Source: an uncultured Coriobacteriaceae bacterium
GTDB taxonomy: Bacteria > Actinomycetota > Coriobacteriia > Coriobacteriales > Atopobiaceae
Assembly (NCBI GenBank): GCA_948439405.1
Contig: CAOJNB010000001.1
Location: 62,001-126,000 of the forward strand
Direction of reading: 5' to 3'
DNA: 64,000 bases
A program made the translations under genes and the position numbers. A model generated the notes under the pieces. It searched no databases. It was not told the origin of the DNA and saw nothing but the letters and a program-made list of their open reading frames with translations. Of this stretch, positions 42,218 to 46,356 are shown piece by piece (positions within the stretch are counted from its first letter, which is position 1; each line of letters begins with the position of its first letter).

Positions 42218-43765
42218 CTACTCCTGGCGGTAGCCGGCGAGGAAGTCCCCAAGCAGGCCCATGGCCTCGCGCAGCACGCCGACGCGCGGCAGGTACACGA
42301 TGCGGAAGTGGTCCGGCCTGCCCCAGTTGAAGCCCGTGCCGCAGGTCACGAGCAGGCGCTTCTCGTGCAGCAGGTCGAGGGCGAAGCGCTCGTCGTCGCG
42401 GATGTTGAACCGCTTCGCGTCGATCCTCGGGAAGGCGTAGAAGGCCGCCTTGGGCTTCACGCAGCTCACGCCGTCGATCTGGTTGAGGGCATCCCACACG
42501 TAGTCGCGCTGCTCGCGAACGCGCCCTCCCGGCTCGATGTAGCCGCGGACGCTCTGGTTGCCGCCGAGCGCCGTCTGCACGACGGACTGGGCGGGCACGT
42601 TCGAGCACAGGCGCATGTTCGACAGCATGTTGACGCCGAGGATGAAGTCGCTCGCGATCCTCAGGTTGCCCGACATCACCATCCAGCCGATGCGGTAGCC
42701 GGCGATCATGTGGGACTTCGAGAGGCCCGAGAAGGTCACGCAGAACAGGTCGGGAGCCATGCTCGCGATCGAGACGTGCTCCTCGCCGTCCATCACGAGC
42801 CGGTCGTAGATCTCGTCGGAGAAGATCGCGAGGCCGTGCCGACGCGCGAGCGCGACGATGTCCTCGAGCACCTCGCGCGGGTAGACGGCGCCGGTGGGGT
42901 TGTTGGGGTTGATGATGACGACGGCCTTTGTGCGCGGCGTCACCTTGCGCTCCATGTCCGCGATGTCGGGCATCCACTCGGCCGACTCGTCGCACACGTA
43001 GTGGACCGGCGTGCCGCCGGCCAGCGTCGCGCAGGCCGTCCACAGCGGGTAGTCCGGCGCGGGGATGAGGATCTCGTCGCCGTTGTCGAGCAGGGCGTTC
43101 ATGCACATCTGGATGAGCTCGGAGACGCCGTTGCCGGTGTAGATGCCGTCCATCCGCACGTTGGGAAGGCCCTTGAGCTGCGCATACTGCATGATCGCCT
43201 TGCGGGCGGAGAACATGCCGCGCGAGTCGGAGTAGCCCTCGCAGTCCGGCAGCTGCGCGCGCATGTCCTCGACGACCTCGTCGGGGGTGCGGAAGCCGAA
43301 CGGGGCGGGGTTGCCGATGTTGAGCTTGAGGATGTGCTTGCCCGCCGCCTCCATGCGGTTCGCCTCGTCCACGACGGGGCCGCGCACGTCGTAGAGCACG
43401 TGCTCGAGCTTGGAGGACTTGCGGATCGTGCGCAGGGGGTGCTCGTCGGAGGCCTCGCCGGACGCGGGCCCGCTCGCGGGAGGCTCGTCCGCCCCGCGGC
43501 CGGAGAGCCACTCCGCGTCCACGCCGAGCACCTCGGCGAGCGTCGCCATGACGCGGCGGCGCGGCATCGTCTTGCCGCCCACGTACTGGCTCATCTGGCT
43601 CTTGCCCAGGCGGGAGCCCAGCCCCTCGGCGGCGCGGATCACGTCCGCCTGCCGCATCCCGCGCTCCCTCATGGCGACGGCGAGGCGGCGCGCGAAGGCC
43701 GCCGTGGGTGCCGCCTCCTCGACGACGGACGTGGTTCGGACGGTTCCCATATCGCGAGCGGTCAT
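42218..43765 (-). CDS. HTH(XRE)-aminotransferase fusion (AlaA-like)
   Basis: A 515-residue fusion. Residues about 25-88 form a Cro/CI-type HTH (ERGMRQADVIRAAEG and KSQMSQYVGGKTMPRRR). Residues about 118-515 are a class I/II pyridoxal-phosphate aminotransferase related to alanine transaminase AlaA: INPNNPTGAVYP, SDEIYDRLV and the PLP lysine in SGLSKSHMIAGYRIGW. The enzyme is likely to make alanine from pyruvate while the HTH senses or controls the gene. An inverted repeat lies upstream (43834-43851). The ATG at 43765 follows AGGAGCAG. Confidence 0.9.
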   Translation of the reverse strand: MTARDMGTVRTTSVVEEAAPTAAFARRLAVAMRERGMRQADVIRAAEGLGSRLGKSQMSQYVGGKTMPRRRVMATLAEVLGVDAEWLSGRGADEPPASGPASGEASDEHPLRTIRKSSKLEHVLYDVRGPVVDEANRMEAAGKHILKLNIGNPAPFGFRTPDEVVEDMRAQLPDCEGYSDSRGMFSARKAIMQYAQLKGLPNVRMDGIYTGNGVSELIQMCMNALLDNGDEILIPAPDYPLWTACATLAGGTPVHYVCDESAEWMPDIADMERKVTPRTKAVVIINPNNPTGAVYPREVLEDIVALARRHGLAIFSDEIYDRLVMDGEEHVSIASMAPDLFCVTFSGLSKSHMIAGYRIGWMVMSGNLRIASDFILGVNMLSNMRLCSNVPAQSVVQTALGGNQSVRGYIEPGGRVREQRDYVWDALNQIDGVSCVKPKAAFYAFPRIDAKRFNIRDDERFALDLLHEKRLLVTCGTGFNWGRPDHFRIVYLPRVGVLREAMGLLGDFLAGYRQE

Positions 43766-43833
43766 GTCTGCTCCTGGAATTGAACTCCGATGTTTCTCAT
43801 GTGCGACAGGTTGCAGACTATCACCGCCCTGCA

Positions 43834-43851
43834 TTGAACACAACGGTTCAA
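43834..43851. promoter_or_regulatory. TTGAAC-N6-GTTCAA inverted repeat
   Basis: A perfect 6-base inverted repeat with a 6-base spacer, about 70 bases before the HTH-aminotransferase start. A third half-site TTGAAC is at 43780-43785. The region also serves the divergent TPR gene. Autoregulation by the HTH domain is an inference. Confidence 0.5.
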
Positions 43852-43995
43852 TTTTAACGAGGAACCCTCACCTCCCGTGGAGGCGACGTGGTCGGAGGGC
43901 CCGCAGGGCCCGCGCGTGAGGGGACGCTGGCGGGAGTGGGTACGATAGGCACAGACGGGAGACGGACGCGGAGCCGACGAGGGGAGGTCGACGGG

Positions 43996-46356
43996 ATGAG
44001 GACGCTCATGCGCCTGCTCGCGGGACTCGCCCGCATGCTCGCCGGCCTCGTGTCCGGCGCGATCGCCGCCGCGGCGCGCCTCGCCGCAGGGCGCCTGGGA
44101 GGGCGCGCGGCCCCCGAGCCCGAGGCCGAGCCGCGCGGCTCCGACGGACCCTCCTGCGGGGAGGCGGGGCCGGCCTCGGACGAGGTCCGCGCCGAGGCCG
44201 CGGACGAGGGGGAGCGAGCCGGGCTCGGCCCGGAGGACGTCGAGACCACCCCCGACGGCCGCTCCGTGCTCGACTTCGACAAGTTCGAGCGGGCTCTGCG
44301 CGCGGCGGCCGACCCCGCCGCCGAGCTCCGCCTGTTCGTCGACGACGTGCGGCGCCGCGAGGAGTCGGGCGTCGACGTCCTCGGCCAGGACCGCCTGCGC
44401 CCGGGCGACCTCGAGCTCTTCGCGGCGCGCGCCCTCGAGGAGTCGGGAGCGCTGGGACCCGGGGCGCTGCCGGCCGTCAGGGTGATCCGCCCCCTCAGGA
44501 GCAGGACCTTCTACGTCCGCGTGGAGCAGCCGCGCGTCACCCGCCGGCAGCGAACGAACGTCCTGAGGCTGGAGAACGCGCTCAACAGGGTCTACTTCGC
44601 GTCGCAGTACTTCGAGGACCTCTCCGAGGTCTCGACCGCCGACGCCTACCTGCTCAACCAGCGCCTCGAGGAGGTCTTCTGCTCCCAGGTCCCCCAGATG
44701 CTGCGCGGGGTGGAGACGGGCGGCGCCGGCGAGTGGGACGCCCGCCTCATGCTCGGCGTCGGCGTCGAGGCCTTCCAGCTCCCCCACCGCCTCACCTGCT
44801 CCTACCGCATGAACCTGCGGGAGCGCGTCGTCGCGGTCCGCGTCGACCTGCCCGAGCCCGACCAGTTCGCCTCCTCGTGCTACCTGCCCCACCTCGGCAG
44901 GGTGGTCCCCACCACGCGCGAGATGCGCGAGCGGGCGGCGTCGGACTACGCGATGCGCCTGGGGATCCTCCTGGCGGCCTTCGCGTTCGCCTGCTCGACC
45001 TCGGTCAACGAGGTCTACGTGCGCGGCGACGCCGACGACGGCAGGCACCACCGCTGCCTCTACTCGGTGTGCTTCGACCGCACGCGCTTCTCCGCCGTCG
45101 ACCTGTCGCGCCTCGACTCCCTCCCCTGGCACTACCGCTGCTTCGGCGCGCGCATGCGCCTGGACGACGGCGTCCTGCGCCCCGTCGAGGCGACCTTCTC
45201 CCTCGAGGAGGAGCGCTTCTGCCCGAGCTCGCGCTTCGACAGCCTCGAGACCTCGCACCGCATGATCGCGGGCGGCGCGCGCGACGTCCTCGGCACCTGG
45301 CGCGCGTCCGACTTCGGAATCAACGAGGAGGCCCGGCGCGCGGGGCTCGCCGAGGCGATCGCGCGCGAGCTGGGCGACGACGTCGAGGACGGCGTCCGCG
45401 CGATCCTGGCGGGGGCGGGCGACGACCCCGCCCCCGACGTCCGCGACGCCGTCGAGCGCACGGTCCGCAAGCTCATCGAGGGCACCCTGCCCGCCGGCGA
45501 CCCCTACGCCTTCGCGGAGGAGTTCGTGGACGGCGGGGAGCTGGGGACCGGCGTCGAGCGGGCCGCCGAGCTGCTGGCCGGGGGCGACGCTGCGGCCGCC
45601 GCGCGCCTGCTCGACCGCGTGATCGCCGAGGCCGACGCCTCCGGCGCCTACCGGGACGACGAGCGGCGCGTGTGGCGGTGCTTCCGCAGCTACGCCGAGC
45701 GGACGCTCTACAACCTCGAGCACGGCACGGAGCGCGAGGTGCTGCTCGCCCCCGACGCCTACCAGGCCGCGCACCTCGTCGCGGGCGCCGCGCGCCTCGG
45801 GATGGGCCAGACGGAGCGCGCCCTCTCCCACGCCCGACGTGCGCTCGAGCTGGGGCCCTACGACACCCGCCCTCGCCTGCTGGCGGCCCGCTGCCTCGAG
45901 GAGCTCGACGACTTCGCCGGCGCGGCCGCCGAGCTCGAGGCGATGCTGGACCGCGCCTACGAGCCGCAGGGGGCGGGCGTCGGCTACTACCGCATGGCCT
46001 ACATGCAGCTGCGCCTCGACCGACCCGACCTCGCCGAGGCCTGCTACCGCAAGTCCCTCGAGTTCCCCTCCGTCGCCCGGCCCGTCGCCGGCCTCGAGCT
46101 CGCGGCTCTGATGGGCGAGCGCGGCGGGGCGCGGGCGATGGGGCCCGACGAGGTTGACGACGCGCTGCGCGCGGGCGGCGTGGGGCTCGTCGACGTGGAG
46201 GGCATCTGCCGGCGCGCCTACGAGTGCGGCCGGGCCGCGATGGACGCGGAGCTGTTCCCGGTCGCGCGCAGCCTCGCCAACGTCCTCGCGACCTTCACGG
46301 GCGACGACGCCGTCTACGACCTCGTCCGCTCGATAGAGGACGGGCCCGACCGCTAG
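43996..46356 (+). CDS. Large TPR protein of unknown function
   Basis: A 786-residue protein I do not recognise. The first 32 residues are hydrophobic/basic and could be a membrane anchor. A central part (about 120-560) has no motif I can name. The C-terminal part (about 610-740) holds TPR repeats with patterns such as ALSHARRALELGP, LRLDRPDLAEACYRKSLE and FAGAAAELEAMLD. TPRs bind other proteins. The ATG at 43996 follows GGGGAGG. The stop codon sits in the loop of a terminator hairpin. Confidence 0.72.
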   Translation: MRTLMRLLAGLARMLAGLVSGAIAAAARLAAGRLGGRAAPEPEAEPRGSDGPSCGEAGPASDEVRAEAADEGERAGLGPEDVETTPDGRSVLDFDKFERALRAAADPAAELRLFVDDVRRREESGVDVLGQDRLRPGDLELFAARALEESGALGPGALPAVRVIRPLRSRTFYVRVEQPRVTRRQRTNVLRLENALNRVYFASQYFEDLSEVSTADAYLLNQRLEEVFCSQVPQMLRGVETGGAGEWDARLMLGVGVEAFQLPHRLTCSYRMNLRERVVAVRVDLPEPDQFASSCYLPHLGRVVPTTREMRERAASDYAMRLGILLAAFAFACSTSVNEVYVRGDADDGRHHRCLYSVCFDRTRFSAVDLSRLDSLPWHYRCFGARMRLDDGVLRPVEATFSLEEERFCPSSRFDSLETSHRMIAGGARDVLGTWRASDFGINEEARRAGLAEAIARELGDDVEDGVRAILAGAGDDPAPDVRDAVERTVRKLIEGTLPAGDPYAFAEEFVDGGELGTGVERAAELLAGGDAAAAARLLDRVIAEADASGAYRDDERRVWRCFRSYAERTLYNLEHGTEREVLLAPDAYQAAHLVAGAARLGMGQTERALSHARRALELGPYDTRPRLLAARCLEELDDFAGAAAELEAMLDRAYEPQGAGVGYYRMAYMQLRLDRPDLAEACYRKSLEFPSVARPVAGLELAALMGERGGARAMGPDEVDDALRAGGVGLVDVEGICRRAYECGRAAMDAELFPVARSLANVLATFTGDDAVYDLVRSIEDGPDR

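Follow-up and report, generated by a model that had tools for sequence, protein, structure and literature searches.

The question raised by this locus is whether an aminotransferase can act as the repressor of its own gene. In the stretch of DNA analysed here (the window; 64,000 nucleotides from an uncultured Coriobacteriaceae bacterium), an earlier note had recognized an XRE-type helix-turn-helix (HTH) domain joined to an AlaA-like aminotransferase, and the reading frame bears this out: the gene occupies positions 42218-43765 of the reverse strand and encodes a protein of 515 amino acids that matches Pfam HTH_31 at residues 23-85 (29.6 bits, cut-off 27) and Aminotran_1_2 at residues 144-491, as well as the solved structure of Escherichia coli AlaA (4cvq). 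The ATG start codon was chosen by its Shine-Dalgarno sequence, CAGGAG, and the scripted start rule selects the same codon; a TTG at 43843 was less favoured. Along the reverse strand, the gene encodes an XRE/Cro-CI type HTH domain (residues 23-87; 43505-43699), assigned from HTH_31 and from a match to the CI repressor of phage TP901-1 (3zhm), including a recognition-helix region LGKSQMSQYVGGKTMPR (residues 53-69; 43559-43609) most positions of which are nearly invariant across the family; a linker (residues 88-108; 43442-43504); and an AlaA-type aminotransferase domain (residues 109-514; 42224-43441), assigned from 4cvq and from its active-site residues, in which the codon of the pyridoxal phosphate (PLP) lysine (K350, equivalent to AlaA Lys240 by alignment) lies at 42716-42718. 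In the predicted structure of the window protein the enzyme domain is good, and the HTH appears as five helices of moderate to low confidence, because none of the 18 other sequence rows carries an HTH; the linker is predicted to be disordered (pLDDT below 50 at residues 95-111). Among homologues the linker varies from 7 to 97 residues by the script's measure (for example, L126 and L115 compared with L131), and the HTH and the enzyme stay conserved on either side of it. The intergenic region upstream of the gene is shared with a divergent open reading frame of 822 amino acids on the forward strand (43888-46356).

Among solved proteins, E. coli AlaA is closest to the enzyme part, with a gap-free alignment over residues 109-514 (E = 1.8e-164) in which residue numbers of the window protein equal those of AlaA plus 110. 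The best of 84 matching NCBIfam models, NF006230 (PRK08363 alanine aminotransferase), scored 339.9 bits, below its cut-off of 534, and the domain is therefore called AlaA-like. In AlaA numbering, Tyr15, Arg18, Gly19, Pro20, Ile40, Gly41, Tyr68, Ser105, Tyr129, Asn179, Asp207, Tyr210, Ser239, Lys240, Arg248, Tyr333, Arg378 and Leu382 are identical in all 104 aligned fused proteins; Asp207 is counted here as an active-site residue of this fold. The variable positions among those checked were Ile17 (Val or Ile), Val104 (Val or Ala), Ile276 (Leu or Met) and Leu332 (Phe). The active-site set whose roles are described in the structural account of AlaA (PMC4094517), namely Lys240, Asn179, Tyr210, Arg248, Arg378, Tyr68 and Ser105, is identical in the window protein and in 104/104 family members, so that the fused protein should be an active aminotransferase; a dead enzyme was rejected on the same grounds. 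The pairing of an HTH with an aminotransferase fold resembles the architecture of MocR regulators, and the aminotransferase domain might accordingly be imagined as a sensor that is no longer an enzyme. We give this reading very little credence: the enzyme part is 54-72% identical to unfused AlaA-type proteins outside the order Coriobacteriales, its active-site residues are kept in 104/104 fused proteins, and the HTH belongs to a different family from GntR. Membership of the MocR family itself was rejected, since GntR is absent from the 11 Pfam families listed for the window protein.

With the start codon at 43765, three copies of a short motif lie upstream of the gene. The earlier note had placed TTGAAC-N6-GTTCAA and a third half-site in the promoter, and both are there: the forward strand reads ATTGAAC-ACAACG-GTTCAAT, with the core of the inverted repeat at 43834-43851, and ATTGAAC at 43779-43785. 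Read along the gene, on the reverse strand, these are three putative operator half-sites: a distal TTGAAC (half-site 1; 43846-43851), a GTTCAA (half-site 2; 43834-43839) that forms an everted TTGAAC-N6-GTTCAA with the first, and a second GTTCAA (half-site 3; 43780-43785) just 5' of the Shine-Dalgarno sequence. They are the only exact half-sites in the window promoter, two of them lack the A before GTTCA, and their spacings of 12, 54 and 66 nucleotides correspond to 1.1, 5.1 and 6.3 helical turns. With up to two mismatches, the paired arrangement occurs once in the 64 kb (0.10 expected by shuffling; at least one match in 10 of 100 shuffles) and at one place, where it is exact, in the 1.54-Mb genome (86.7% complete), in which the backwards control pattern also has one match. 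When exact cores separated by gaps of 0-30 were sought, this promoter was the only match in the genome and the backwards control had none; pair searches of this genome gave no pair in any other arrangement. The window contains three ATTGAAC, each within this promoter (0.52 expected).

In a sample of 197 genomes of the order, a strong homologue is present in 113 (E < 1e-148; the next best match is at 1.8e-43). Among the other 84 genomes are incomplete ones as well as near-complete ones of the same family; none of the 84 has a homologue of the AlaA-fusion type better than 1e-43. From the 113, 110 homologues were taken (those of G011, G020 and G030, which are fragments or have an in-frame stop, were left out), and the HTH motif is found in 107; L135 and L147 are without it, and L156, cut at a contig end before the HTH, is unclassable. 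L114 is cut by a contig end inside the HTH and is without upstream DNA; L084 and L121, which have a gap of N within the gene, were kept in the promoter counts, and these three were left out of the protein alignment, which therefore holds 104 of the 107 fused proteins. All fused homologues belong to Coriobacteriales, and strong homologues occur in seven of the ten sampled families of the order (f1, f2, f3, f4, f6, f9 and f10). In a phylum sample of 396 genomes, 58 match at E <= 1e-100, 36 of them outside the order, and none of these 36, judged by alignment starts, aligns before query residue 63; alignments of relatives sought by name outside the order, in this and other phyla, start at residue 70 or later, apart from L045 (weak, 84-168), which was dropped and is without a match. 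A profile of the HTH, which found both positive controls, detected no HTH in 40 AlaA loci (39 outside the order and L005) or in L135; L005, from Atopobium deltae, is the same gene as L147, and the two count once. In a tree of the enzyme domain, built without L084, L121, L114, L156, L013 and L020, the genes of the order group together, without outsiders, in a single clade of 107 tips (L005 and L147 represent one gene). Since the fused genes fall in one clade, the 106 promoters described below are not 106 independent events; the removal of similar promoters reduces them to 84 or 70.

Whether the repeat is conserved ahead of homologous fusions had been proposed as a check, and the answer divides the proposal in two: the palindrome itself is not conserved, its orientation and spacing varying among homologues, but the half-site is. 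When TTGAAC and GTTCAA are counted over the 290 bases that precede the HTH anchor, every one of the 106 fused homologues whose upstream DNA is readable has two half-sites or more, and three or more are present in 104 (mean 4.4; typically three to five); none of 41 distinct unfused AlaA loci has two within up to 400 bases upstream, where two sites were found in all. The conserved unit is an array of extended half-sites AAGTTCAATTT, of which the commonest form, AGTTCAATTT, accounts for 147 of 371. The palindrome was set aside as the conserved unit; half-site, multiplicity and helical phase are what homologues retain. Half-site density is about 0.00-0.09 per 60 bases over the 1.4 kb upstream of -360, and reaches 1.5 and 2.5 at the promoter. 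A weaker rise inside the gene reaches as much as 0.40 per 60 bases some 1.2 kb downstream. That the repeat arose by chance, the promoter DNA being AT-rich, was considered and rejected: GTTCAA or TTGAAC occurs 371 times in 84 promoters, the median for 102 hexamers of the same composition is 4, and the only others above 30, AGTTCA and AAGTTC, both overlap GTTCAA. AGTTCA, GTTCAA and ATTGAA are each present in all 81 deduplicated promoters with control DNA, compared with 3-6 of 81 control stretches taken 900-1100 bases before the anchor. Distances between half-sites fall preferentially on multiples of about 10.5 bp (716 pairs in the 84 deduplicated promoters, R = 0.33; none of 2000 randomisations was as strong, the maximum being 0.138), and R is again 0.33 in the stricter set of 70 promoters. 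The sites therefore tend to share one face of the DNA, as would be expected for a cooperatively binding protein.

The HTH domain points to a known reader of similar half-sites. A profile of 36 family HTHs matches the N-terminal domain of TP901-1 CI (3zhm) at 4.5e-17, and also 5a7l, 6tri and 3zhi, the next solved relative being the 434 repressor at 2.4e-4; the window HTH alone matches 3zhm at 3.1e-7. At E <= 0.01, Pfam HTH_3 matches 36 of these 36 domains and HTH_31 matches 35. BurrH, which had the top E-value with both the profile and the single domain, was discarded: its score adds up many weak repeats of the domain's first part, none of which passes the threshold by itself. Phage TP901-1 CI is thus credibly the nearest solved relative of the fused HTH. 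Q60 of the window protein aligns with CI Gln45 and is kept in 103/104 fused proteins, and the position of CI Asn48 is mostly Ser (92/104); structure 3ZHI is described as CI Q45A/N48A, impaired in DNA binding (PMC11149083). The CI half-site consensus reported from phi13 is AGTTCAYR, and TTGA mutants of this half-site are reported there to be bound with low affinity (PMC8516035). Alteration of the TP901-1 OR half-site AGTTCACG is reported to lower the fold repression of PR from 40 to 4 (PMC7250872). The match to CI, whose half-site core AGTTCA is present in every one of the 81 promoters, came after the discovery of the array and is therefore an independent check of the half-site core.

Within the enzyme tree, the unfused genes L135 (genome G099) and L147 (genome G188) nest among fused genes, with local supports of 0.48-0.93 that leave their exact places uncertain. 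L135 has neither the HTH nor any upstream half-site, and L147, also without the HTH, has one half-site at -319; they are apparent separate secondary losses of both HTH and array, and such lineages serve as a natural control. Since the array is present with the HTH and missing without it, the array follows the domain. The HTH profile finds exactly one copy in each of ten fusion genomes and none in seven genomes without the fusion, G188 and G099 included; in those genomes, then, no second member of the HTH family was detected to which the sites could belong. These findings bear on the proposition that the half-sites belong to another regulator and that the fused HTH has other binding sites or none, which we regard as highly improbable: arrays accompany the HTH and are missing without it, the nearest credible solved relative of the HTH is reported to bind AGTTCAYR (PMC8516035), and no second HTH of the same family is found in 10/10 fusion genomes. 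What speaks for another regulator is that similar pairs stand close to licC-like genes of four genomes, including two without the fusion.

These pairs, of the form GTTCAA...TTGAAC, precede NTP-transferase genes, named by eye as licC-like or related, in four genomes of the order, G028, G132, G140 and G128 (L199:1230-1264, L200:1168-1202, L204:1112-1182 and L201:1170-1203). In G028 and G132, which are without the AlaA fusion, the licC-like open reading frame seems by eye to begin with an HTH-like stretch. The pairs might be further targets or might be due to chance. Pair searches for a wider regulon in 14 genomes gave scattered matches elsewhere, in most genomes little more numerous than those of the backwards controls, and in the 11 stretches that were inspected nothing beyond the licC-like lead made a convincing second target.

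The position of the array suggests what its occupancy would do. Between half-sites 2 and 3, on the reverse strand, lies a candidate extended -10 element, TGATAGTCT (43815-43823), recognized by eye; it is the only TGnTAnnnT in the window promoter, and the script's scoring preferred another TA...T. A candidate -35 element, TTGTGT (43838-43843), likewise recognized by eye on that strand, stands 17 nucleotides from the -10 and overlaps the inverted repeat; its match to the consensus is weak. TGnTAnnnT is present in 59 of 82 homologous promoters (23 are without it), compared with a mean of 12.5 and a largest value of 21 in mononucleotide shuffles and with 0/80 control stretches. Relative to the chosen start codons, which in homologues follow a scripted Shine-Dalgarno rule and make these distances approximate, the first half-site begins the array 69-139 nucleotides upstream in 87/104 homologues and the last lies 17-30 nucleotides upstream in 82/104. 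Occupancy of such an array would block RNA polymerase, so that repression is the natural reading of the site positions. Activation of the promoter by the protein, or activation and repression in turn depending on ligand, as MocR-type regulators are capable of, is by comparison unlikely, although the nearest upstream half-site starts 16-19 nucleotides before the best-scored TA...T in 31 of 68 promoters and GabR, of the MocR family, is described as an activator (PMC6917764): the array reaches to within 17-30 nucleotides of the chosen start codon in 82/104 homologues, and in 46 of 76 promoters a half-site lies 13-16 nucleotides downstream of the best-scored -10, which fits repression.

The proposed mechanism of repression is that the phage-CI-type HTH, carried on a flexible N-terminal linker, would bind AGTTCAATT half-sites; the aminotransferase dimer would supply two tethered HTHs; several dimers would bind the array on the same face of the DNA; and the occupied array would cover the region from the -35 element to the ribosome-binding site, so that transcription would be blocked with growing amounts of the enzyme. 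What the sequences themselves show is that the fusion exists and is conserved across the order, that an array is linked to the HTH and helically phased, and that the active site is intact. The idea that a metabolic enzyme binds its own promoter, put forward in the earlier note in connection with the palindrome, survives without the palindrome: binding of the fused protein to DNA at its own promoter is strongly supported by the contrast in half-sites between fused and unfused loci and by the CI-type HTH. Actual binding, repression rather than activation, and cooperativity of dimers on the array are what we infer from these features. Taken together, a catalytically competent AlaA-type aminotransferase is probably also the repressor of its own gene.

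Whether such a repressor would also sense a metabolite is a separate matter. In its narrower form, self-repression would be simple feedback by concentration, in which the aminotransferase domain only dimerises and catalyses and no metabolite is sensed; this form, which we rate at slightly under an even chance, explains the array, the link to the HTH, the phasing and the intact enzyme without a ligand, and the variable length of the linker and its predicted disorder in the window protein argue against rigid allosteric coupling. Set against it is the place at which the linker ends, just before the AlaA-type N-terminal arm. In AlaA this arm is described as part of the dimer interface and as a plug over the active site, where Tyr15 and Arg18 become ordered (PMC4094517), and both residues are kept in 104/104 fused proteins; unfused AlaA keeps them too (invariant in 19/19 rows), and their conservation is for that reason only suggestive of sensing. 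A controlling role for alanine, pyruvate or PLP, such as the direct coupling of alanine and pyruvate levels to expression suggested in the earlier note, is plausible, and gating by the substrate or PLP state through the arm joined to the linker is possible: closure of the plug on substrate would alter the linked HTH. A fuller and more tentative version, which we hold to be rather less likely than feedback by concentration, is that a CI-type domain was captured early in Coriobacteriales and became a sensor of alanine and pyruvate (or of PLP and its amino form, PMP), with two to nine phased, freely rearranging half-sites that would read both the amount of enzyme and the state of its substrate at one dedicated promoter.

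If self-repression is confirmed, an enzyme of central metabolism controls itself in seven of the ten sampled families of the order, with an apparent one-promoter regulon in the genome of the window. Many Coriobacteriales are gut bacteria, and the proposal gives the order a concrete and testable regulatory circuit. It would also illustrate how a metabolic enzyme can take over a DNA-binding domain of the phage-repressor type, and its operator, in which half-site and helical phase persist through shifts of position and orientation, is well suited to the study of cooperativity through flexible linkers.

Full-text searches of an open-access library brought up no paper with a title or abstract opening on an XRE-AlaA fusion or on the array, and the fusion may well be named already in genome annotations. 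Active metabolic enzymes that carry a DNA-binding domain and with it repress their own genes are exemplified by PutA and BirA, the domains and chemistry of which are unrelated to those of this fusion; as expected of such an enzyme, matching candidate binding sites are present in the promoter. Compared with E. coli AlaA (4cvq; PMC4094517), the PLP lysine and the Asp, Tyr, Asn and Arg residues of the active site are kept together with the Tyr/Arg plug, but AlaA is without an HTH, whereas here about 110 residues including an HTH precede the enzyme and the promoter has a matching array. MocR, GabR and PdxR likewise combine an N-terminal HTH with a fold-type-I aminotransferase domain, and MocR-type operators are described as mixed direct and inverted repeats (PMC5320631), as in the arrays here; MocR proteins, however, join a GntR winged HTH to an aminotransferase-like sensory domain, in contrast to the Cro/CI HTH and near-ordinary AlaA with an intact active site found in this family. 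The likeness to the CI repressors of TP901-1 and phi13 extends to the sequence of the HTH, the LxKSxLSQYV recognition helix with its Gln, the AGTTCA half-site core, a flexible linker to an oligomerising domain, and the presence of several operators. The C-terminal part is nevertheless an aminotransferase rather than the helical oligomerisation domain of TP901-1 CI; the half-site is AGTTCAAT rather than AGTTCAYR, with A at position 7 where CI has Y; and many spacings and orientations replace the AGTTCA-N7-TGAACT of OL, given as AGTTCATGAAACGTGAACT (PMC4941734). The OL spacing (11 in the count used here) is rare in the arrays, occurring in 1 of 233 inward-facing pairs with 5 more at 12, and wider inward-facing pairs that share a face of the helix are common in the arrays of fused homologues.
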